Below are positions 6,700 through 40,288 of a DNA stretch of 40,288 nt, piece after piece (the stretch's first letter is position 1; each line of letters starts with the position of its first letter). The stretch is from Achromobacter dolens (GTDB lineage: Bacteria > Pseudomonadota > Gammaproteobacteria > Burkholderiales > Burkholderiaceae_B): positions 1 through 40,288 of the forward strand of contig NZ_CADIJW010000049.1 in the NCBI RefSeq assembly GCF_902859745.1, read 5' to 3'. A model generated the notes under the pieces. The model had not been told where the DNA came from. It made no database searches and saw only the letters and a program-made list of their open reading frames with translations. The translations under genes and the position numbers were made by a program.

Positions 6700-7619
6700 C
6701 GCGTGCGGATACGGGGATCGACGATGCCGTAGGCGATGTCGACGATCAGGTTGACCAGGACGATGACGGCGGCCAGCACGGTGACCGTGCCTTGCAGCAC
6801 CGGGTAGTCGCGGCCGGAGATGGCGTCGAACGCCAGCGTGCCCAGGCCGGGCCAGTTGAACACCATCTCGATGACGACGATGCCGCCGATCAGGCCGCCG
6901 AACTGCAGCCCCAGGTAGGTGATGAGGGGAATGGCGCAGTTGCGCAGCGCGTGCTTGTACAGCACGATGCGCTCCTTCAGGCCCTTGCTGCGCGCCACCA
7001 TGATGTACTGGGCCGACAGCGTCTCCAGCATGGTGGTGCGCACCAGGCGGATGTTGGTGGCCGACAGGATGATGGCCATGGTCAGCGACGGCAGCACCAG
7101 GCTGGCCGGACCGCTCCAGCCCGACGGCGGCAGCAGCGGGAAGGTGATCGACAGCAGCAGCACCAGCATCAGCGCCAGCCAGAAGTTGGGGAACGACAGT
7201 CCCACCAGCGACAGGATGCGGATCGCCTGGTCGGTGGGCTTGCCGCGCTTGATGGCGGCCTGGATGCCCAGCGGCAGCGAAATCAGGATCGACGCGATCA
7301 GCGAGGTGAACGCCAGCATCAGCGTGGCCGGCAACGCGTCGCCGATCAGCTTGGCGACCGAGGTGCCGCCCATGAAGCTGCGGCCGAAGTCGCCGTGCAG
7401 CAGGCCCTGCATGTAGCTCAGGTATTGCTCGTGGAACGGCCGGTTCAGGCCCAGCGCCTGGCGGATGTTGGCCAGGTCCTGCTCGGTGACGCTGCCCGAG
7501 CCCTGGCTGAGCATCAGCGCGGGGTCGCCGGTCAGGCGCACGGCGTAGGAGACGAGCAGCGTCACGGCCACGATCACGAAGACCGCCTGCAACACGCGTT
7601 TAATCAGAAATCCGGTCAT
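6696..7619 (-). CDS. Peptide ABC transporter permease, DppB-like
   Basis: This 307-residue permease has the typical DppB N-terminus, MTGFLIKRVLQAVFVIVAVT, as its first membrane helix. A periplasmic loop follows with LGLNRPFHEQYLSYMQGLLH and GDFGRSF, hallmarks of DppB/OppB. Next come five more membrane helices and an EAA loop around YIMVARSKGLKERIVLYKHA. NWPGLGTLAFDAISGRDYPV near the C-terminus is also characteristic. It overlaps the DppC-like gene by 4 bp. A 182-bp gap carrying a palindromic repeat separates it from the upstream solute-binding protein gene. Confidence 0.9.
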   Translation of the reverse strand: MTGFLIKRVLQAVFVIVAVTLLVSYAVRLTGDPALMLSQGSGSVTEQDLANIRQALGLNRPFHEQYLSYMQGLLHGDFGRSFMGGTSVAKLIGDALPATLMLAFTSLIASILISLPLGIQAAIKRGKPTDQAIRILSLVGLSFPNFWLALMLVLLLSITFPLLPPSGWSGPASLVLPSLTMAIILSATNIRLVRTTMLETLSAQYIMVARSKGLKERIVLYKHALRNCAIPLITYLGLQFGGLIGGIVVIEMVFNWPGLGTLAFDAISGRDYPVLQGTVTVLAAVIVLVNLIVDIAYGIVDPRIRTR

Positions 7620-7710
7620 GAGGCTCCGCCAGGGCTTTCGCCCCGGCGAATCAGTAGGGTTAATGCGTCAAATGCTTCAAGTGCCACACAGACATCACGA
7701 CGCCCAATCA

Positions 7711-7800
7711 GGCATCGCCCCTAAGCGGGATGCCGCGGATCCGGCTCCGCCGGTCCGCAGGCATGCCCCTGGGGGAAGGCGCGCAGCGCCTCGGGGGGGC
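7711..7800. repeat. REP-like palindromic intergenic element
   Basis: The 182-bp gap between the solute-binding protein stop and the permease start holds several short palindromes. These are CCGGC-tcc-GCCGG (7741-7753), a CCCC-T-GGGG arm (7767-7775), AGGCGC-gca-GCGCCT (7777-7791) and a G7 run (7793-7799). This resembles extragenic palindromic repeats common in Bordetella/Achromobacter genomes, recalled from general knowledge and not searched. In other ABC importers REP elements at this place lower permease expression relative to binding protein. No second copy was seen in the window. Confidence 0.5.
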
Positions 7801-7801
7801 T

Positions 7802-9334
7802 CTACTCCACGGTCGTATCGACGAACCGGAAGCGGATGTCGCCCGGCACTTCCAGGTTCTTCACGCGCTTGTTCACGCCGACGATGGTGTTCAGGCTGTA
7901 CAGCGGCAGTTCCAGCGCCTGGTCGGCCACGTAGCCGGCGATCTCCTGCAGCATGGCTTCGCGCTTCTTCACGTCATAGACGGTGCGCTGCGCTTCCAGC
8001 ATGGCGTTCAGCTTGGGATCGTTGTCGTATGGATTCCACTTCTGGCCCGAGTGGTACATCAGGTAGGCCGTGTTGTCGTAGTCGTAGGTCCAGCCGCCCC
8101 ACTGGTTCTGCCACATCTCGCCGGTCTTGCCGCCGGGGATGATGTCGTTGAGCAGCACGCCGGTCTCATACGGCTTGATGGTGGCGCGCACGCCCACCGC
8201 CTGCAGATAGCCCGACACCGCCTGGGCCACTTCGCGGAAGTTCGAATCGCTGCCGCGCACGTCGATCTGCACCGTCGCGCCCGGCTTGATGCCGGCGCCG
8301 GCCAGCAGCTTCTTGGCTTCGGCGGGGTTGAAGGGCAGGGGCTTCTGCTCGGGGTTGTAGCCGAACGACTGCGGACCCTGGAAGCTGGCGATGGTCTTGG
8401 CCTGGCCCAGCAGCAGTTGCTTGACGATGGTGTCGCGGTCCACCGCCATGATCAGCGCGCGGCGCACGTCGCGGTTCTGGGTGATGCCGTTCTTGGTGTT
8501 GTAGCGCAGCGCGAAGGCCACCGGGCCGCCGGTCGAGATGACGTCGGCGTTGCCGGACTTCTTGACCGTCTCGATCAGGCCCAGCGGGATCAGCGTGGCG
8601 ATGTCCACGCGCCCGGCCTGCAGTTCGGCGACCTGGGTGCCGGGTTCGCTGATGAAGCGGTAGACCACCTTGTCCAGCTTGGGCTTGCCGCCCCAGTAGT
8701 CGTCATTGCGCGCCAGGGTCACGTTGACCTTGGGCTGGTAGCTCTCGAACTTGAACGGGCCGGTGCCGACCGGGTGGGTGTTGAAGTTCTCCTCGCCCTT
8801 TTCCTGGATGTACTTGGGCGGCACGATCATGGCGCCGTAGCCGGCCAGCTTGGTCAGCAGCACGGGGTCGGGCTGCTTGAGGATGAAGTCGACGGTGTAC
8901 TCGTCCACCACCTTGACCTCGCCGATCGAGTCGTAGTTCGACTTCTGCGGGCCCTTGGCGCCTTCCGCGCCCAGCAGGCGCTCGAACGTGAACTTGACGG
9001 CCTCGGCGTTGAACGGCTCGCCGTTGTGGAACTTGACGCCCTGGCGCAGCGTGAAGCGCAGGCGTTTGTTGTCGTCCAGGTATTCCCACTTGGTGGCCAG
9101 GCCCGGCTGCAGCTTCAGGTCGGCGCCGCGCATGGTCAGCCCGTCGTACAGGTTGCTGCCGACCGAACCCCAGAAGGTCACGAAGGTGTCGATCGGATCC
9201 CAACTGCCCGGATCCTGGTTGATGGCGACGTTGAGCGTGCCGGCGGCCTGGGCGGTCGACAGGACCGCGGGCAGCGCGCCGCCCAGCGCCAGGGCCAGGG
9301 CGGTGGCGGTGAAGGTTTTGCGTAGGGAGAGCAT
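7802..9334 (-). CDS. Peptide ABC transporter solute-binding protein, DppA/SBP_bac_5
   Basis: This 510-residue periplasmic protein has a clear signal peptide (MLSLRKTFTATALALALGGA, cleavage near AQA-AG). The mature protein begins TLNVAINQDPGSWDPIDTF, the SBP_bac_5 opening. WEYLDDNKRLRFTLRQGVKF, HNGEPFNAEAVKFTFERLL and NTHPVGTGPFKF are diagnostic family segments. ATG 9334 is chosen over the TTG two codons upstream because a GGAG sequence lies 6 nt before it. The family captures peptides, glutathione or opine-like ligands; the ligand is not readable. Gene order ATPase, binding protein, two permeases, peptidase supports one uptake operon. Confidence 0.9.
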   Translation of the reverse strand: MLSLRKTFTATALALALGGALPAVLSTAQAAGTLNVAINQDPGSWDPIDTFVTFWGSVGSNLYDGLTMRGADLKLQPGLATKWEYLDDNKRLRFTLRQGVKFHNGEPFNAEAVKFTFERLLGAEGAKGPQKSNYDSIGEVKVVDEYTVDFILKQPDPVLLTKLAGYGAMIVPPKYIQEKGEENFNTHPVGTGPFKFESYQPKVNVTLARNDDYWGGKPKLDKVVYRFISEPGTQVAELQAGRVDIATLIPLGLIETVKKSGNADVISTGGPVAFALRYNTKNGITQNRDVRRALIMAVDRDTIVKQLLLGQAKTIASFQGPQSFGYNPEQKPLPFNPAEAKKLLAGAGIKPGATVQIDVRGSDSNFREVAQAVSGYLQAVGVRATIKPYETGVLLNDIIPGGKTGEMWQNQWGGWTYDYDNTAYLMYHSGQKWNPYDNDPKLNAMLEAQRTVYDVKKREAMLQEIAGYVADQALELPLYSLNTIVGVNKRVKNLEVPGDIRFRFVDTTVE

Positions 9335-32390: not shown

Positions 32391-33356
32391 ATGACCCACC
32401 ACGTCGCCTTCCTGCTGGTGCCCGATTTTCAGTTGCTGGACATGTCCGGCCCGGCCGCGGTGTTCCAGACCGCCGGCCGTTTCGCGCAGACCGCCGCCGG
32501 CCCCGCGTATGCGGTGCACGTCGTCTCCGAACACGGCGGCCCGGTGCGCAGCTCCTGTGGCATCGGCGTACAGACGGTGTCCTGGCACGGCACGCCCGCC
32601 GATACCCTGGTGGTGCCTGGCGGGGAGGGCGCGCGCGCCGCCGCCGTCACGCCCGCCCTGCGCGCCCGCCTGCTGGCGCAGCGGCAGGCGGGCCGGCGCC
32701 TGGCCAGTGTCTGCACCGGCGCCCTGGTGCTGGCGGGCGCGGGCCTGCTCGACGGCCGCCGCGCCACCACCCATTGGCGCCATGCCGCAATGCTGGCGCG
32801 CGAGCATCCGGGCGTGCGGGTCGAGCCCGACCGCATCCATGTCCGCGACGGCGATACCTGGACCTCGGCCGGCATCACCGCCGGCATCGACCTGGCGCTG
32901 GCGATGGTGGAGGCCGACCTGGGCGCCGAACTGGCGGCCACCACCGCGCGCGAAATGGTGGTGTATCACCGCCGCTCGGGCGGCCAGTCGCAGTTCTCGG
33001 CCCTGCAGGACCTGGCGCCCGACAGCGAGCGCATGCGCGCGGTGCTCGAACATATCCGCGCCAACCTGGGCGCGGCCCTGACGGTGGAGCATCTGGCCGA
33101 GGTGGCCTGCGTCAGTCCGCGCCAGTTTCTGCGCAGCTTCAAGGCCGATACCGGCGAAACCCCCGCCAAGGCGGTCGAGCGCATCCGCGCCGAGGCGGCG
33201 CGGGCCTGCATCGAGGCTGGCGACGACAGTATCGACAGCGTGGCGCGGCGCGTCGGTTTCATGGACAGCGAACGGATGCGGCGCGCCTTCCTGCGGGTCT
33301 ACGGCCAGCCGCCCCAGGCGCTGCGCCGCGCCGCGCGCAACGCCGCGTTGGCATGA
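32391..33356 (+). CDS. GlxA-family transcriptional regulator (DJ-1/PfpI plus AraC HTH)
   Basis: This 321-residue protein is a fusion. An N-terminal class I glutaminase-like DJ-1/PfpI domain (about residues 1-190) has Cys108 in LASVCTGALVLAGAGLLDGR, followed by ATTHWRH, the usual elbow and His region. The C-terminal AraC-type double HTH has ALTVEHLAEVACVSPRQFLR, SFKADTGETPAKAVERIRAE and SIDSVARRVGFMDSERMRRA. Such proteins (GlxA, ArgR, GbdR, FtrA type) sense amino compounds or quaternary amines in some species. It is divergent from an MFS transporter, which is the likely target. Confidence 0.88.
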   Translation: MTHHVAFLLVPDFQLLDMSGPAAVFQTAGRFAQTAAGPAYAVHVVSEHGGPVRSSCGIGVQTVSWHGTPADTLVVPGGEGARAAAVTPALRARLLAQRQAGRRLASVCTGALVLAGAGLLDGRRATTHWRHAAMLAREHPGVRVEPDRIHVRDGDTWTSAGITAGIDLALAMVEADLGAELAATTAREMVVYHRRSGGQSQFSALQDLAPDSERMRAVLEHIRANLGAALTVEHLAEVACVSPRQFLRSFKADTGETPAKAVERIRAEAARACIEAGDDSIDSVARRVGFMDSERMRRAFLRVYGQPPQALRRAARNAALA

Positions 33357-33372
33357 GCGGGGCGAAAACGGT

Positions 33373-33391
33373 AATAATAGTCACTCTCAAT
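33373..33391. promoter_or_regulatory. Weak Fur-like site upstream of the AraC regulator
   Basis: AATAATAGTCACTCTCAAT is A/T-rich in a GC-rich setting and matches about half of the 19-bp Fur consensus, with a good left half (AATAAT) and a poor right half. It lies 31 bp before the GTG start. By comparison the two receptor genes have full palindromes. A GGGCCC-cggac-GGGCCC hairpin (33400-33416) lies between this site and the start. Confidence 0.3.
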
Positions 33392-33422: not shown

Positions 33423-34301
33423 GTGACCGCTTCTCACCCCGAACTCGATTGGGCCGTTCCGGCCGCCACGCCCGCCATGTCGCTGGCCGGCGGCACGTTG
33501 CGCTTCGAGCGCGGCGAACGGGTGCTGGAAGACCTGGCGCCGGGCCTGAAGCTGGTGCTGGTGCTGGACGGCGAGCTGCGCTACCGCGTGTCGGGCGCGC
33601 CGGCCGCCCAGGTCAGCGGGCCGTTGCTGCACCTGAGCCTGTGCCGCGATCCGCTGCGCATGGAACACGAATTCGGCGCGCGCCGGTCGCTGCGCTTCGT
33701 GTCGCTGCGCACCTCGCTGGAACACCTGCGCGAGTCCTTATCCCTGGAGCCGGCCGACATCGCGGGCCTGTTGCGCGCGCCGCGCGACGGCGCACCCTAT
33801 GCCGACGCCAATTTGCGGCTGGCCGCGCCGCTGCAGGCCTTGGGCCGGCAGATGCTGGCCTGCCCCATGCAGGGCGCGCTCAAGCGCATGTACCTGTCCG
33901 CCAAGGCGCTGGAGCTGACCGCGCTGGCGCTGGGCGCGCTCCAACCGGCGCCGGCCGCATCGACCCCGGGCGGACGGTCACGCGCCGACGTTGAACGCCT
34001 GCACCACGCGCGCGATCTGCTGCTGGCCGATCTTCAGCATCCCCCCACGTTGCCCGAGCTGGCGCGCCGTGTCGGCGTCAACGTCAACAAGCTCACCACG
34101 GGCTTTCGCCAGTTGTTCGGATGCAGCGTCTATGCCTGCGTGCGCGAGCAGCGCATGGCGCAGGCGCACGCGCTGCTCGCCGCCGGCGAGATGAGCGTAT
34201 CGGAGGCCGCCTATGCCTGCGGTTATACGGATTCGCATTTCAGCAAGGCCTTCCAGAGGCGTTACGGCGTGCTGCCGCGCGCGCTGATCCGCGGCCGCTG
34301 A
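33423..34301 (+). CDS. AraC-family regulator of siderophore uptake (PchR/YbtA-like)
   Basis: This 292-residue protein has an N-terminal sensing part (LDWAVPAATPAMSLAGGTLR and RSLRFVSLRTSLEHLRESLS) and a C-terminal AraC double HTH: TLPELARRVGVNVNKLTTGF, RQLFGCSVYACVREQRMAQA and MSVSEAAYACGYTDSHFSKA. The N-K-L-T-x-G-F-R-x-L-F-G and CGYTDSHFSKAF stretches resemble PchR/YbtA-type activators that respond to ferric siderophores. GTG 33423 is the likely start, although the ribosome site is poor. It is followed by two TonB-dependent receptors and is the best candidate to bind the direct repeats at 36701-36738. Confidence 0.87.
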   Translation: MTASHPELDWAVPAATPAMSLAGGTLRFERGERVLEDLAPGLKLVLVLDGELRYRVSGAPAAQVSGPLLHLSLCRDPLRMEHEFGARRSLRFVSLRTSLEHLRESLSLEPADIAGLLRAPRDGAPYADANLRLAAPLQALGRQMLACPMQGALKRMYLSAKALELTALALGALQPAPAASTPGGRSRADVERLHHARDLLLADLQHPPTLPELARRVGVNVNKLTTGFRQLFGCSVYACVREQRMAQAHALLAAGEMSVSEAAYACGYTDSHFSKAFQRRYGVLPRALIRGR

Positions 34302-34417
34302 CCGCGCCGCCGGTTGTCGGCGTTCTGGCCCCACCCGTCGCGCGGGATCGCGCGCATGCCGATGCGCGTTCGCGCCCGCGCGGTTTCCATGGCAAGAGTC
34401 TTACAAACGCCTGCGCG

Positions 34418-34445
34418 TTGCGGTTTCTCCTCGAAATTGTATGAG
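34418..34445 (+). promoter_or_regulatory. Promoter of siderophore receptor 1
   Basis: TTGCGG (34418-34423) and TATGAG (34440-34445) are 16 bp apart. The -10 element overlaps the start of the Fur palindrome at 34442, so Fur binding would block RNA polymerase directly. Confidence 0.5.
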
Positions 34446-34456
34446 AATAATTCTCA
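34442..34456. promoter_or_regulatory. Fur box of siderophore receptor 1
   Basis: TGAGAATAATTCTCA is a perfect 7-1-7 palindrome matching the Fur core TGATAATNATTATCA at 12 of 14 defined positions. It ends 23 bp before the receptor start (ATG 34480) and overlaps the -10 element. Confidence 0.85.
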
Positions 34457-34479
34457 GTATTAACGAAGGAGAAGTACCC

Positions 34480-36627
34480 ATGCGCTCTAGGTTCGGGAAC
34501 AACGCGCGGCGCGCGCGGTTGGCGCGTCAATGGCCGCTCTGGCTGGCGGTGGCGACGGGGCCGGCGCTGGCCGAAGGCACCCAGGAGCCCACGGGCGCCG
34601 CCACCTTGCCCGCGGTCACCGTCAGCGGCGAGCGCGAGGCCGGCGCCGCGCAACAGCCGACGCTGGGCAAGCTGCCCTTGAGCGTGCGCGAGACGCCCCA
34701 ATCGATCTCCGTGATCGGCCAGGAACAGATCCGCCAGCAGAACCTGCACACCCTGGACGACGTCATGCGGCACGCCACCGGCATCACGGTGCAGCCGCAC
34801 CATCACCTCACCACCGGCTACTACGCGCGCGGCTTCCAGATCGAATCCTTCGAGCAGGACGGCGTGCCGGCCATGATGGGCAACCGCGCCGCCGCGCCGG
34901 AAGACATGGCCATCTACGAGCGCGTCGAGATCCTGCGCGGCGCCAACGGCCTGTTGCACGGCGCCGGCAATCCCTCTGCCACCGTCAACCTGGTGCGCAA
35001 GCGGGGGCAGCGGCAATTCGCCTTCGGCGGAGAACTCAGCGCCGGCAGTTGGGACAACTATCGCGCCGAAGTCGACCTGGGCGGACCGCTGAACGACAGC
35101 GGCCGCGTCCGCGGCCGCGTCGTCGGGGTCATGGCCGACCGCGGCTTCTTCTATGAAAGCGCGAACGAGAAGACCGGCCTGTTCTACGGCACTGCCGAGG
35201 TCGACCTGGGCCCGGACACCGTGCTGTCGGCGGGCCTGCTGCACAGCCGCGTGCGCTCGCATCCGCCGCCCAGCATGGGCGGACTGCCGCGCTACAAGGA
35301 CGGCGCGCCGATCGGGCTGCGGCGCTCGGTCAATCTGGAGTCCGCCGGCAGCCGTTCCGACTGGAACACGACGCGCGTGTTCGCGGACCTGGACCACCGC
35401 TTCAGCCAGGGCTGGCGTGCGCGGCTCAGCGTCGATCATCTTCGCTCCGATTCCGAGATGAAGTACCTCACCGTCAACGGCGGGATCGACCGCGCGACGG
35501 GCCTGGGCGCCAAGCTGTCGGGAGGAGGCATCAAGTACGACAACAGCCAGACCAGCATCGACGCCTACGTCAGCGGCCCGGTCGAACTGTTCGGGCGGCG
35601 CCACGAGCTGCTGTTCGGCGCCAATTCACTGCGGACTTCGTACGAGAACCTGAATGCCGATGTCACCAGCCCTCAGTTGAACATGCCGATGGACGTGTTC
35701 CACTGGCATCCGCGCGATGTGCCCGACTACGACATCGGCCCCTACAAGTCCGCGAGCATCAATCGCGACCGGGAGCAGGGCGTGTACGGCATGGGCCGCT
35801 TCTCGCTGGCCGATCCGCTGACGCTGGTGCTCGGCGCGCGCATGGACTGGAGCCGGCTGGAAACGCCCAAAGCGAGCCAGCGCACCAACGCCAGATTCAC
35901 GCCCTATGGCGGCCTGATCGTCGACCTGGACCGGCAGTGGTCGCTGTATGGCAGTTACGCGCAGGTATTCATGCCGCAAATCGACCAGCTCGATCGCGAC
36001 GGCCAGCCGCTCGATCCGGTCACGGGCACCAACACCGAGGCCGGCGTCAAGGGTGAACTGTCGGACGGCGCGCTCAACGTGTCGCTGGCGCTGTTCCAGA
36101 TCCAGCAAAAGAACCGCGCCCAGGCCGACCCGTCGGTGGTGTGCGCGGGCCGACGCTGCCCCTCGGTCGCCGGGGGCGAGGTCCGCAGCCGCGGCTTCGA
36201 GGCCGAGGCCGCCGGCGCCATCACGCCTTACTGGACGGTGGCGGCGGGCTACACCTTCAACACCACCAAGTACATGGTGGACACGCGCGCCAGCGGCCAA
36301 CCCTATGCCAGCTTCACGCCCAGGCACATCTTCCGCCTGTGGACCGAGTACGCCCTGCCGGCGCTGGAGCGGCGCCTGAGCATCGGCGGGGGCGTACAGG
36401 TGCAATCGGGCTTTTACAACGTGGCCAAGACCATCACGCTGCGCCAGGGCGGCTACGCGCTGGCCGACATGCGCGTGGCCTATCGCGTCGACAAGCACGT
36501 CACGGTGGCGCTCAACGCCAACAACCTGTTCGACCGCGTCTACTACCAGCGCCTGAACGATGCCAACTGGACCAACTACTACGGCGAGCCGCGCAATTTC
36601 ATGCTGACGGTGCGCGCCGAGTATTGA
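34480..36627 (+). CDS. TonB-dependent siderophore receptor 1 (FpvA/FptA-type)
   Basis: This 715-residue outer-membrane receptor starts at ATG 34480 with GAAGGAG upstream; the earlier in-frame ATG 34441 lies against the Fur box and is rejected. A signal peptide (WPLWLAVATGPALA) is cut before EGTQEP. A TonB box-like [11 protein letters not shown] follows, then the plug ([50 protein letters not shown]) and a 22-strand-type barrel ending VRAEY. There is no N-terminal signalling (STN) domain, so control by an anti-sigma/ECF pair is unlikely. A Cys pair (VVCAGRRCPS) lies in an outer loop. It is closely related to receptor 2. Confidence 0.92.
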   Translation: MRSRFGNNARRARLARQWPLWLAVATGPALAEGTQEPTGAATLPAVTVSGEREAGAAQQPTLGKLPLSVRETPQSISVIGQEQIRQQNLHTLDDVMRHATGITVQPHHHLTTGYYARGFQIESFEQDGVPAMMGNRAAAPEDMAIYERVEILRGANGLLHGAGNPSATVNLVRKRGQRQFAFGGELSAGSWDNYRAEVDLGGPLNDSGRVRGRVVGVMADRGFFYESANEKTGLFYGTAEVDLGPDTVLSAGLLHSRVRSHPPPSMGGLPRYKDGAPIGLRRSVNLESAGSRSDWNTTRVFADLDHRFSQGWRARLSVDHLRSDSEMKYLTVNGGIDRATGLGAKLSGGGIKYDNSQTSIDAYVSGPVELFGRRHELLFGANSLRTSYENLNADVTSPQLNMPMDVFHWHPRDVPDYDIGPYKSASINRDREQGVYGMGRFSLADPLTLVLGARMDWSRLETPKASQRTNARFTPYGGLIVDLDRQWSLYGSYAQVFMPQIDQLDRDGQPLDPVTGTNTEAGVKGELSDGALNVSLALFQIQQKNRAQADPSVVCAGRRCPSVAGGEVRSRGFEAEAAGAITPYWTVAAGYTFNTTKYMVDTRASGQPYASFTPRHIFRLWTEYALPALERRLSIGGGVQVQSGFYNVAKTITLRQGGYALADMRVAYRVDKHVTVALNANNLFDRVYYQRLNDANWTNYYGEPRNFMLTVRAEY

Positions 36628-36700
36628 CCGTCGTCATCGCATGAGACGGCCGCGCGCGTCGCATGGCGCGCGCCGGCCGCCTCGGCCCGCCCGGTAAAAA

Positions 36701-36738
36701 ACTTCCGCAATCGCCAGCGAGACTTCCGCAATCGCCAG
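36701..36738. promoter_or_regulatory. 17-bp direct repeats, AraC-type activator site upstream of receptor 2
   Basis: ACTTCCGCAATCGCCAG is present twice without mismatch (36701-36717 and 36722-36738), separated by 4 bp, a 21-bp period or two helical turns. The promoter-proximal copy reaches into the place where the -35 of TAGAAT (36759) would lie, and no -35 consensus is present there. This equals the known araI1-I2 arrangement of AraC activators. The PchR-like regulator at 33423 is the likely ligand; this is inference. Confidence 0.7.
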
Positions 36739-36758
36739 TGGCGCGCCACGTCGCTCTC

Positions 36759-36764
36759 TAGAAT
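36759..36764 (+). promoter_or_regulatory. -10 element of siderophore receptor 2
   Basis: TAGAAT matches TATAAT at 5 of 6. At 17 bp upstream the sequence is CAGTGG, not a -35, which fits an activator-dependent promoter. The Fur box follows 4 bp downstream. Confidence 0.5.
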
Positions 36765-36768
36765 GGTT

Positions 36769-36783
36769 TGAGAATAATTCTCA
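36769..36783. promoter_or_regulatory. Fur box of siderophore receptor 2
   Basis: TGAGAATAATTCTCA is identical to the box of receptor 1, and the spacing to the start codon (23 bp to GTG 36807) is identical too. The site would cover the region just after the -10, so iron-loaded Fur should repress. Confidence 0.85.
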
Positions 36784-36806
36784 GTAACCGGGAAAGAGGA
36801 ACGGCG

Positions 36807-38939
36807 GTGCGATCAAGGTTCAGGAACAGGGCGGCACGGCCGCGCAAGGGTGCGGCGCGCCATTGGCCGGTGTGGCTGGCATTGACGGCGGCGGGGCCGG
36901 TGGCGGCGCAAGCGTCCGACGATGCCGCGACCTTGCCGGCGGTCACCGTCAGCGGCGAACGCGACGCGACCGCGCCGGCGCCCACGATGGGCAAGCTGCC
37001 CTTGACGGTGCGCGAGACGCCGCAGTCGATCACCGTGATCGGCCAGGAACAGATGCGGCAGCAGAACCTGCAGAGCCTGGATGACGTCATGCTGCACGCC
37101 ACCGGCATCACGGTGCAGCCGTACCAGTTGCTGACCACGGCCTACTATTCCCGCGGCTTCAAGGTCGATTCGTACGAGCAGGATGGGGTGCCGGTGCTGA
37201 TGGGCAACATGGCCGCGTCGCCGCAGGACATGGCGGTGTACGAGCGCGTCGAGATCCTGCGCGGCGCCAACGGCCTGCTGCATGGCGCCGGCAATCCCGC
37301 CGCCACCGTCAACCTGGTGCGCAAGCGTCCGCAGCGCGAGTTCGCCTTCAGCGGCGCGGTCAGCGCTGGCAACTGGGACCGCTACCGCGCCGAGGCCGAC
37401 CTGGGCGGCCCGCTCAACGCCAGCGGCAGCGTGCGCGGCCGTCTCGTCACGGCCTTTGAAGACCGCGGCTATTTCTACGACGTGGCGGACCAGAAGTCGG
37501 CGCTGTTCTACGGCATCGGCGAGGTCGACCTGGGCCCGGACACGGTACTGTCGGCCGGGCTGCAATACCAGCGCATCCGCTCCACCACCAACATGGCGGG
37601 CGTGCCACGCTACAAGGATGGCGGCGACATCGGCCTGAAGCGCTCGACCTACCTGGACGCGGCCTGGGACCGCTTCAACTGGAACACGACGCGCGTGTTC
37701 GCCGACCTGGAACACCGCTTCGGCCAGGGCTGGAGCGCCAAGCTCAGCGCCAACTACCTCACCGCCGACAGCAACCTGAAGTACGCCGGCGCCTATGGCG
37801 CGATCGACCGCCAGACTGGCCTGGGCTCGGCGCTGATGGGCGGCGCCTACAAATTCGACAACACCCAGGCCAGCGTCGATGCCTACGTCAGCGGCCCGGT
37901 GGAGCTGTTCGGCCGGCGCCACGAGCTGCTGGTCGGCGGCAATGCGCAGCGCACCACGACCGAGCAGTACACCGGCCAGTTGACGCCGGCGCTGCGCGTG
38001 CCAGTGAACGTGTTCGACTGGGATCCGCACAGCGTGCCGGAGCCGGGCGTCGGCCCCTATACCTCGCCGGGCGAGACGCGCGCGCGCCAGCAGGGCGTCT
38101 ACGGCATGGGCCGCTTCTCCCTGGCCGATCCACTGACGCTGGTGCTGGGCGGCCGCATGAGCTGGTGGAACCAGGACGCGCCCGGTTCGCGACAGCGCAT
38201 CGACCCCGAATTCACGCCCTACGGCGGGCTGATCGTCGATCTGGACCGCCAGTGGTCGCTGTACGGCAGCTATGCCGAGGTGTTCCAGCCGCAGACCCAG
38301 CTCACGCGCGACGGCCAGGGGCTGGACCCGGTCACCGGCACCAACTACGAGGCCGGCATCAAGGGCGAACTGATGGACGGCGCGCTGAACGTATCGCTGG
38401 CCGCGTTCCAGATCCGCCAGAAGAACCGCGCGCAGCAGGATCCGGCCTGGCCCTGCGTCGGCCAGAACTGCTACTACGTGGCGGGCGGCGAGGTGCGCAG
38501 CCGCGGCTTCGAGGCCGAGGCCAGCGGCAGCATCACGCCGTACTGGACGGTGGCCGCGGGCTACACCTTCAACACCAGCAAGTACCTGACCGACACGCAG
38601 GCGGGCGGCCAGCCCTTCGCCAGCTTCACGCCCAGGCACATCTTCCGGCTGTGGACGAACTATGCGCTGCCGACGATGCAGCGGCGCCTGAGCGTGGGCG
38701 GCGGCCTGCAGGTGCAGTCCGGCTACTCGACCGTGTCGGGCCCGGTCACGCTGCGCCAGGGCGGCTATGCGCTGGTCGACCTGCGTCTGGCCTATCGCGT
38801 CGATAAGCACCTGACCGCGGCGCTGAACGTCAACAACGTGTTCGACCGCGGCTATTACCAGAGCCTGTCGGGCACGGCCTGGAACAACCGCTACGGCGAG
38901 CCGCGCAACGTCATGCTGACCCTGCGCGCCGAGTACTGA
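36807..38939 (+). CDS. TonB-dependent siderophore receptor 2 (FpvA/FptA-type)
   Basis: This is a 710-residue receptor starting at GTG 36807 with AAAGAGGA upstream, at the place equivalent to the receptor 1 ATG. A signal peptide ([17 protein letters not shown]) is followed by [11 protein letters not shown], the plug ([40 protein letters not shown]) and a barrel ending LRAEY. It shares long identical blocks with receptor 1 ([38 protein letters not shown]) but differs in outer loops, for example [20 protein letters not shown]. It also keeps an outer-loop Cys pair ([10 protein letters not shown]). A terminator lies 13 bp after its stop. Confidence 0.92.
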
Positions 38940-39002: not shown

Positions 39003-39410
39003 GTGGCTGCAATGACGCCCGTGCCAGTGTTCGACTGGCTCGATCATTTCATGGCGCTGGCTGGCGATGGCGGCATGCGCGACATCGGCAGGCTGCGGCG
39101 CCTGGCGCCGCACGAAGGCTGGCTGGTCGGCATCAAGGCCGCGGCCAGCGACGCCGACGTGCACGGCGATGTCTGGGAACGCCATCCCGCCGGCGAGGAA
39201 ATGCTCTGTGTGCTGGAAGGCAGCGTGGTGCTCACGCTGATGGACGAGGCCGGCGCCGAGACCGATGTGCTGTTGGACGCCCGGCGCGGCGCCGTGGTGC
39301 CGCGCGGCATCTGGCACCGCCTGCGCGTGGCCTGTCCGGCCCGCATCCTGTTCGTCACGCCCGGGCAGGGCAGTGAACACCGCCGCGTGGGCGCGGCAAC
39401 GCAAGCTTGA
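39003..39410 (+). CDS. Cupin-domain protein of the siderophore uptake cluster
   Basis: This 135-residue protein has a single cupin: VHGDVWERHPAGEEMLCVLE followed by GSVVLTLMDEAGAETDVLLD is motif 1, and GAVVPRGIWHRLRVACPARI is motif 2. The metal-site residues (His/Glu/His) are only partly evident. It starts at GTG 39003 with AAGGAG 8 nt upstream; an ATG three codons later is less well placed. The gene lies between the receptor and the inner-membrane importer, so it may bind, release or modify the ferric siderophore in the cytoplasm. That is inference only. Confidence 0.8.
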   Translation: MAAMTPVPVFDWLDHFMALAGDGGMRDIGRLRRLAPHEGWLVGIKAAASDADVHGDVWERHPAGEEMLCVLEGSVVLTLMDEAGAETDVLLDARRGAVVPRGIWHRLRVACPARILFVTPGQGSEHRRVGAATQA

Positions 39411-39421
39411 AGGAAATCGAC

Positions 39422-40288
39422 GTGAAGCAAACCGCGAATGCGCGCCTGTTCGTCATGATCGGCGCGCTGTATTTCTCCCAGGGCATTCCGCTGGGCGTGG
39501 CCATGGAGGCATTGCCCACGCTGCTGCGGCGCGACGGCGCGCCCCTGCACGCGCTGGCCTGGCTGCCGCTGGTGGGGCTGCCCTGGGTGCTGAAGTTCCT
39601 GTGGGCGCCGCAGGTCGACAACCGCTGGCGCGCCGCGCTCGGCCGGCGCCGTAGCTGGATTCTTCCGATGCAGGCCGTGGTGCTGGCCTGCCTGGTGGCG
39701 GTGGCCATGACCGGCATCGCCGCCGCCAGCGCGCCCTGGGTGGTGGGCCTGATGGCCCTGGCCTCGCTGGCCAGCGCCACCCAGGACATCGCCACCGACG
39801 GCCTGACCGCCGAGCGCTTCGATGGCCAGGCGCTGGCGCGCGCCAACGCCGTGCAGGTCGGCGGCACCATGGTCGGCTTTTTCGCCGGCGGGCCGGGCTG
39901 CCTGGTGCTGGCGGGGTGGCTGGGGCAGGGCGTTGCGCTGACGCTGCTGGCGGCGGTGGTGGCCTTCAGCCTGCTGATGGCGCTGGGGTGGCGTGAAGCC
40001 GCCTTGCCCGCGCCCGCCGCCGCGCCGCGGCGCGCCACCCTGGCGCGCTTCGCGCGCCGGCCCGGCGCCTGGGCGCTGGTGCTGGCGGCGTTCCTGGCGG
40101 CCATGACGGCGGTGGCGGGCTATGGGCTGTCCAAGCTGTTCCTGGTGGACGCGGGCTGGCCGGTGGAGGCGGTGGGGCGACTTGGCATGGCGGGGGGCGC
40201 GGTGACCGTCTTGCTCGGCTGCGGCGGCGGCGCCTGGCTGGTGGGCCGCATGGGCGCACGCGGCGCGCTGGCCCTGGGGCTGGCGGCG
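39422..40288 (+). CDS. RhtX/FptX-like MFS siderophore importer (3' partial)
   Basis: 289 codons are in the window, and the reading frame runs off the end. It starts at GTG 39422 with GAAGGAAATC upstream, 11 bp after the cupin stop. FVMIGALYFSQGIPLGVAME, LAWLPLVGLPWVLKFLWAPQ and VDNRWRAALGRRRSWILPMQ form the AmpG/RhtX/FptX-type N-terminus; ATQDIATDGLTAERF and NAVQVGGTMVGFFAGGPGCL follow. These single-subunit carriers move intact ferric siderophores across the inner membrane in Sinorhizobium (RhtX) and Pseudomonas (FptX). Position behind two receptors supports this role over AmpG muropeptide permease. Confidence 0.88.
   Translation, partial: MKQTANARLFVMIGALYFSQGIPLGVAMEALPTLLRRDGAPLHALAWLPLVGLPWVLKFLWAPQVDNRWRAALGRRRSWILPMQAVVLACLVAVAMTGIAAASAPWVVGLMALASLASATQDIATDGLTAERFDGQALARANAVQVGGTMVGFFAGGPGCLVLAGWLGQGVALTLLAAVVAFSLLMALGWREAALPAPAAAPRRATLARFARRPGAWALVLAAFLAAMTAVAGYGLSKLFLVDAGWPVEAVGRLGMAGGAVTVLLGCGGGAWLVGRMGARGALALGLAA

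Follow-up and report, generated by a model that had tools for sequence, protein, structure and literature searches.

A candidate AraC-type operator and an adjoining Fur-type box upstream of a TonB-dependent siderophore receptor gene of Achromobacter dolens

Genes and promoter elements of the locus

The window, by which we mean the whole analyzed stretch of 40,288 nucleotides of Achromobacter dolens (contig NZ_CADIJW010000049.1), contains a gene for an AraC-family regulator (araC in the following) together with two paralogous receptor genes and a siderophore permease gene. The genes are arranged as follows.

32391-33356, GlxA/FtrA-type AraC-family protein (Pfam HTH_18), upstream of araC
33423..34301, plus strand, AraC-family regulator and proposed activator, Pfam HTH_18/HTH_AraC at residues 213-289, followed through its orthologs, an HTH alignment and a tree
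34480..36627, plus strand, receptor 1, a paralog with 68% identity to receptor 2, lying between araC and its proposed target
36807..38939, plus strand, receptor 2, TonB-dependent siderophore receptor, FauA/FhuE-like, GTG start assigned by eye in a conserved context
39003..39410, plus strand, small cupin-like gene, probably in the same operon as receptor 2, start assigned by eye
39407..40288, plus strand, siderophore permease of the RhtX/FptX family (TIGR02718), cut by the end of the window

Both receptors score above the cut-off of the TonB-siderophor subfamily. For both of them the nearest named models are FauA and FhuE with scores under both cut-offs, and against the FauA model (cut-off 900) receptor 2 reaches 509 bits and receptor 1 464 bits, which leaves the two proteins outside FauA proper. 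BfrD/BfrE had been considered as the identity of the receptors and were dropped, the FauA and FhuE models being nearest. The start of receptor 2 in the list of open reading frames, TTG 36768, was rejected as it falls inside the Fur-type box described below; GTG 36807 is the most likely start, and a GAAAGAGG stretch between the palindrome and this codon is a candidate ribosome-binding stretch. The cupin-like gene matches a WbuC-type cupin model with 22 bits, below the cut-off of 42, and in the other 24 genus loci it is likewise the next gene after receptor 2. The permease, truncated as it is, obtains 354.9 bits with TIGR02718 and is thereby 1.3 bits short of the cut-off of 356.15, so that at the family level, judged from its sequence, it is the RhtX/FptX-type permease expected of a PchR-type system. 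None of the genes annotated here was recognized as one for siderophore biosynthesis. A comparison of the query with plasmids returned two relatives, each record covering 3%.

The regulator carries its HTH domain at the C-terminus and its gene is linked to that of a TonB-dependent receptor, as is the case for regulators of the PchR type. A search against NCBIfam returned no PchR among 18 hits, from a library that may not include a PchR model, and the best matches (AraC, AndR and QhpR) were all far below cut-off. Since no NCBIfam equivalog claims the protein, the label PchR-like comes from the genomic context. A preliminary description of this DNA had placed a PchR-like AraC gene 2.4 kb upstream of the promoter of receptor 2; the position is correct, the distance from the end of araC (34301) to the first repeat being 2.4 kb, while the PchR-like part of the statement is to be read as a matter of context. 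The distance itself is explained by receptor 1 lying between araC and the site.

The promoter region upstream of receptor 2 consists of the following elements.

36701..36717, plus strand, putative distal AraC-type half-site, ACTTCCGCAATCGCCAG, seen in the sequence, with 0 to 2 differences from the consensus across 25 orthologous promoters
36718..36721, plus strand, half-site spacer of 4 bp (CGAG in the window), constant in length and variable in its letters among the 25 loci
36722..36738, plus strand, putative proximal half-site, ACTTCCGCAATCGCCAG again, its last 3 bp entering the -35 position, seen in the sequence and in the comparison of the 25 loci
36759..36764, plus strand, -10 element TAGAAT, invariant in 25 of 25 loci
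36769..36783, no strand assigned, Fur-type palindrome TGAGAATAATTCTCA, a perfect 7-1-7 directly 3′ of the -10 element, seen in the sequence and in the comparison of the 25 loci

The two repeats are identical at all 17 positions, and the gap between the proximal half-site and TAGAAT amounts to exactly 20 bp. The -35 candidate located 17 bp before TAGAAT is CAGTGG (36736-36741), which agrees with TTGACA at one of six positions. A sigma-70 consensus scan of 36640-36830 returned no promoter, a result which carries little information because shuffled sequences also gave 0.0. Thus the repeats with their 4-bp spacer, the -10 element lacking a -35 element and the perfect palindrome are all present as the preliminary description had claimed. 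We take the palindrome to be a Fur box on the strength of the motif; it overlaps the start region of the receptor-2 gene.

Class II direct-repeat AraC operators have equally oriented half-sites of about 17 bp spaced by two helical turns, the proximal one being at the -35 position of a promoter without a good -35 element. The half-sites of araI are 17 bp long with a period of 21 bp. The arrangement upstream of receptor 2 has this layout, that is 17-4-17 with a period of 21 bp, a half-site at -35 and 20 bp from there to TAGAAT in a region where the scan detected no sigma-70 promoter.

Exact direct repeats of 17 bp with a start-to-start spacing of 8-60 occur twice in the window including the half-site pair. 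The other one has a period of 9, begins at position 29 (29-54) and thus lies near the contig start. None of 40 windows simulated with a Markov-1 model contained a direct repeat of 17 bp, the longest one at this spacing being 14 bp. In the genome to which the window belongs (6.29 Mb) the exact 17-mer has two occurrences, both of them in the pair.

Conservation of the repeat pair and its co-occurrence with the regulator gene

An ortholog of AraC with at least 66% identity is encoded in 25 of the 43 genomes of the genus Achromobacter, the genome of the window being counted. The protein is 72-90% identical in A. pulmonis, A. insuavis, A. deleyi, A. marplatensis and A. pestifer; named genomes contributed seven AraC loci, two of them distant with 36-42% identity. 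Receptor 2 is present with at least 80% identity in all 25 araC-bearing genomes, and the best match outside of these (70%) is receptor 1 of genome G015. In all 25 loci we find upstream of receptor 2 the 17-4-17 repeat, exactly 20 bp without any variation, TAGAAT and the Fur-type box. The palindrome is degenerate in some of the loci and most so in L059; its presence in every locus is what would be expected of a Fur-regulated promoter. Taking both half-sites together, 0 to 3 of 34 positions deviate from the consensus. The information content is 1.24-2.0 bits at each of these 34 positions and 0.19-0.84 bits per position in the upstream flank (-30 to -4, 27 positions). The lower score of this flank is partly due to its mixed origin, 20 loci having the end of araC there and 5 the end of receptor 1. 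The stretch from the repeat to the -10 element, which is homologous throughout, is below 1 bit at 14 of its 20 positions. Receptor 1 is absent from 20 of the 25 araC loci, where the site directly follows araC, and is located between araC and the site in the remaining five (the window and L039-L042).

The preliminary description had regarded the geometry as a hallmark of activation by an AraC-family protein and had proposed to look for the repeat upstream of orthologous receptors. All 25 loci of the genus turned out to keep the pair, and outside the genus 10 of 12 receptor loci keep the layout (see below), which supports the claim. These counts also bear on the possibility that the repeat arose by chance or by a recent duplication without function. 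The exact identity of the two halves in the window could indeed stem from a fresh tandem duplication, but a repeat retained in every ortholog, recurring with the same geometry in other genera and not reached at 17 bp in any simulation makes us regard this explanation as negligible.

The pair was then sought with up to 3 mismatches in the 43 genomes of the genus and in 268 genomes of the family. Within the genus it occurs in 25 genomes, exactly those with an AraC of at least 66% identity, and in one copy each, the backwards control of the search yielding 0. The remaining 18 genomes, two of which are incomplete (57% and 78%), have neither the pair nor araC nor receptor 2. In the family the pair is present in 28 of 268 genomes, and the three additional ones, which belong to one other genus, are exactly those with an AraC of 58-61% identity; in ten more family genomes with an AraC of 40-49% no pair was detected at up to 3 mismatches. 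Over the 268 genomes the pair hence tracks the AraC gene down to 58% identity, a co-occurrence which by itself does not separate the regulator from the locus because no genome of the genus has AraC or receptor 2 alone. As to other targets in the genome of the window, a single half-site with fewer than 2 mismatches is found nowhere else, the next-best place having 2 mismatches, and at up to 3 mismatches there are 61 places compared with 42 in the backwards control, which is near background. The regulon appears to be a single operon, that of receptor 2.

The promoters of receptor 1 and of araC have different features.

34442..34456, no strand assigned, Fur-type palindrome of receptor 1 without an adjoining AraC half-site
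33370..33391, no strand assigned, TAATAAT and a Fur-like stretch before araC, recognized by eye

A half-site search before receptor 1 and before araC in the window gave best scores of -16.5 and -19.4 bits, respectively, compared with 33.2 bits for the true sites, and in the receptor-1 promoters of four relatives the best half-site score was -7.5 bits. A block at 34381-34460 beside the palindrome of receptor 1 appears conserved by eye in six of six receptor-1 loci and is possibly the site of another activator. TAATAAT precedes araC in 15 of the 17 rows listed (the window and 16 of 37 araC loci), and the Fur-like stretch comes behind it. This suggests that araC itself may be iron-controlled; the Fur-like stretch would then give a feed-forward loop, with Fur acting on the sensor and on its target.

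Where the sequences around the locus align, genome G015 is 96-98% identical to the window, and it keeps the GlxA-type gene (99%) and receptor 1 (97.7%). In its locus L108 (G015:C21:30000-45000, at 6812-9300) receptor 1 has lost araC from one flank, and from the other flank receptor 2, the cupin-like gene and the permease gene are missing. After receptor 1 a relic of the repeat pair is left (L108 9263); it has 3 and 6 mismatches, and TAGAAT is lacking where it would be expected. Judged from this gene content araC is absent along with the receptor-2 operon and not along with receptor 1. The decay of the site shows that constraint was lost after loss of the operon, which is no proof of a dependence on AraC.

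The same genome is informative with respect to the identity of the binding protein, since the repeats could also be bound by another regulator, namely the GlxA/FtrA-type neighbor (32391-33356) or a global factor. The neighbor likewise belongs to the AraC family according to Pfam HTH_18 and is encoded close by in the window. However, G015 retains its gene even though the site decayed, and in 19 of 24 loci (L044-L062) no GlxA-type gene was found within about 3 kb upstream of araC while the pair is kept in all 19. We therefore rejected the neighbor as the binder, its gene being absent from the fetched stretches of these 19 pair-keeping loci. The single pair per genome speaks against a global factor, and altogether we consider binding by another regulator than AraC 33423-34301 very improbable.

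Joint change of half-sites and first HTH in other genera

Outside of the genus we compared all 13 loci of the family, in 12 of which a receptor gene is located beside the AraC gene, L136 having no receptor there. When periods from 15 to 31 bp were tested, the best direct-repeat period was 21 bp in 11 of the 12 receptor loci. The arrangement half-site, 4 bp, half-site, 20 bp and TA[GA]AAT is present in 10 of the 12 with the halves matching each other at 11 to 16 of 17 positions. L128 keeps the repeat period and has no TA[GA]AAT, and in L137, whose AraC is 37-41% identical, neither a clear repeat nor the TA[GA]AAT layout was found. In seven loci (L129-L135) the half-sites start with ATAC, and in five of these the proximal half-site reads ATACCGGCAATCGCCAA.

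The letters of the half-sites go together with residues of the regulator. All 29 regulators with a CTTCCG-type site have NK at residues 222-223; the set is made up of the 25 genus loci and L125-L128 and is defined by at least one half-site reading CTT. In seven of seven regulators with ATAC sites residues 222-223 are TT and residue 226 is R. L136 (TR) and L137 (RK) do not have a recognizable site and were left out of this comparison. All 36 regulators share Y[TS]DSHF in the second HTH, and toward its 3′ end the half-site departs little from ATCGCCA. A profile alignment matches residues 222, 223 and 226 to the E. coli AraC (2k9s) residues Ser, Arg and His, which presumably lie on the recognition helix of its first HTH; Ser208 and His212 of E. 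coli AraC reportedly contact bases. The tree places L128 (NK, CTT) and L136 together with the TT clade at a support of 0.87. Therefore, the change between NK and TT sits inside this group, and on the tree it is one event and not seven. This joint change of half-site and first-HTH residues points to the first HTH as the reader of the distal box in each half-site and to the second HTH as the reader of the box closer to the promoter.

Taken together the co-occurrence and the joint change of residues and site lead us to infer that the protein encoded at 33423-34301 binds the pair, and the repeats very probably constitute its AraC-type operator. If the pairing of residues and sites holds, TT-type regulators are expected to prefer ATACCGGC and NK-type regulators ACTTCCGC sites.

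Proposed regulation of the receptor-2 operon and related systems

We propose that AraC 33423-34301 is a cytoplasmic, PchR-like sensor of a ferri-siderophore and that a dimer of it binds both 17-bp repeats as the half-sites of an activator operator. The sensed siderophore would be imported by receptor 2 and the RhtX/FptX-type permease. Under iron shortage Fur would come off the palindrome that overlaps the start region and, probably, off the one before araC as well. With the siderophore inside the cell AraC would occupy both half-sites, which have the same orientation and, 21 bp or two turns apart, lie on one face of the helix, and its second HTH at the -35 position would recruit the polymerase to a promoter having only a -10 element. 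The receptor-2 operon would thus be switched on only when low iron and the matching siderophore coincide, that is by an AND gate. We consider this complete model of a PchR-type sensor with Fur, including effector and activation, to be well favored.

Alternatively AraC could bind the pair and mainly repress, or it could activate without a siderophore ligand, in both cases without an AND gate. E. coli AraC does repress in the absence of arabinose (PMC4760080). Yet the half-site at the -35 position of a promoter without a -35 element is the layout of an activated promoter, repression is already supplied by the Fur-type box, a looping partner was not seen (there is no further genomic half-site with fewer than 2 mismatches) and the receptor and permease context is that of PchR, so that we regard this alternative as rather unlikely compared with the AND gate.

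The closest parallel to the proposed AND gate is PchR with fptABCX of Pseudomonas aeruginosa. According to a review (PMC9774294), pyochelin-Fe that has entered the cytoplasm by way of its receptor and FptX activates PchR there, and the pyochelin operons are repressed by Fur and activated by PchR. The locus described here would share the AraC-type cytoplasmic ferri-siderophore sensor as well as repression by Fur combined with activation by AraC, and it has the operon of receptor and FptX-type permease (PMC9774294); the analogy gains from the presence of this permease in the operon. In contrast to the pyochelin system the receptor is FauA/FhuE-like and no biosynthesis gene was recognized among the annotated genes. 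The repeat pair resembles araI1-araI2 of E. coli araBAD, two adjacent AraC operators next to the promoter to which liganded AraC binds together and recruits polymerase (PMC4760080). Unlike in araBAD, no distal looping half-site was found in the genome of the window and a Fur-type box takes the place of CRP control.

A third comparable system is AlcR-FauA (alcaligin) of Bordetella, a genus related to that of the window, AlcR being reportedly an AraC-type regulator of a hydroxamate siderophore system. The likeness consists in the type of regulator and in the 509 bits of receptor 2 on the FauA model, the difference in this score being below the cut-off of 900. Alcaligin has been reported for the genus (PMC10913535). 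As receptor 2 remains below the FauA cut-off, a hydroxamate from other microbes is in our judgment as likely to be the siderophore as alcaligin. The excerpt of a paper on hydroxamate xenosiderophore uptake in Burkholderia (PMC10866019) does not mention AraC.

In the open-licence literature no title among the matches listed names the regulator or its site. The kind of switch is already known and the locus looks like a well-preserved new example of it. The model would assign a regulator, a site and a regulon of one operon to an uncharacterized siderophore uptake system in 25 of 43 genomes of a genus with clinical strains, and it predicts that receptor 2 depends on the sensed siderophore and that receptor 1 does not.

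With regard to evolution we see roughly even odds for the following reading. NK with CTTCCG would have changed jointly to TT with ATACCGG on one branch while the geometry remained fixed, receptor 1 would have escaped the switch and use Fur and another conserved element, and a sibling system would have its own letters at the same 21-bp period, so that regulators and sites form private pairs. If true, the locus is a natural experiment on the evolution of AraC-type siderophore switches. The aligned regulators and sites provide a clean starting set for recognition rules of the AraC family.

The sibling AraC-receptor pairs occur in the same genus (L063-L065, L109-L117). Their AraC proteins are 33-46% identical to the regulator studied here, the higher values covering part of the protein, and their receptors 48-50%. 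In 12 of the 15 sibling loci scanned CGAAAG-N15-CGAAAG, which has a 21-bp period, precedes a Fur-like TGATTATCA box.
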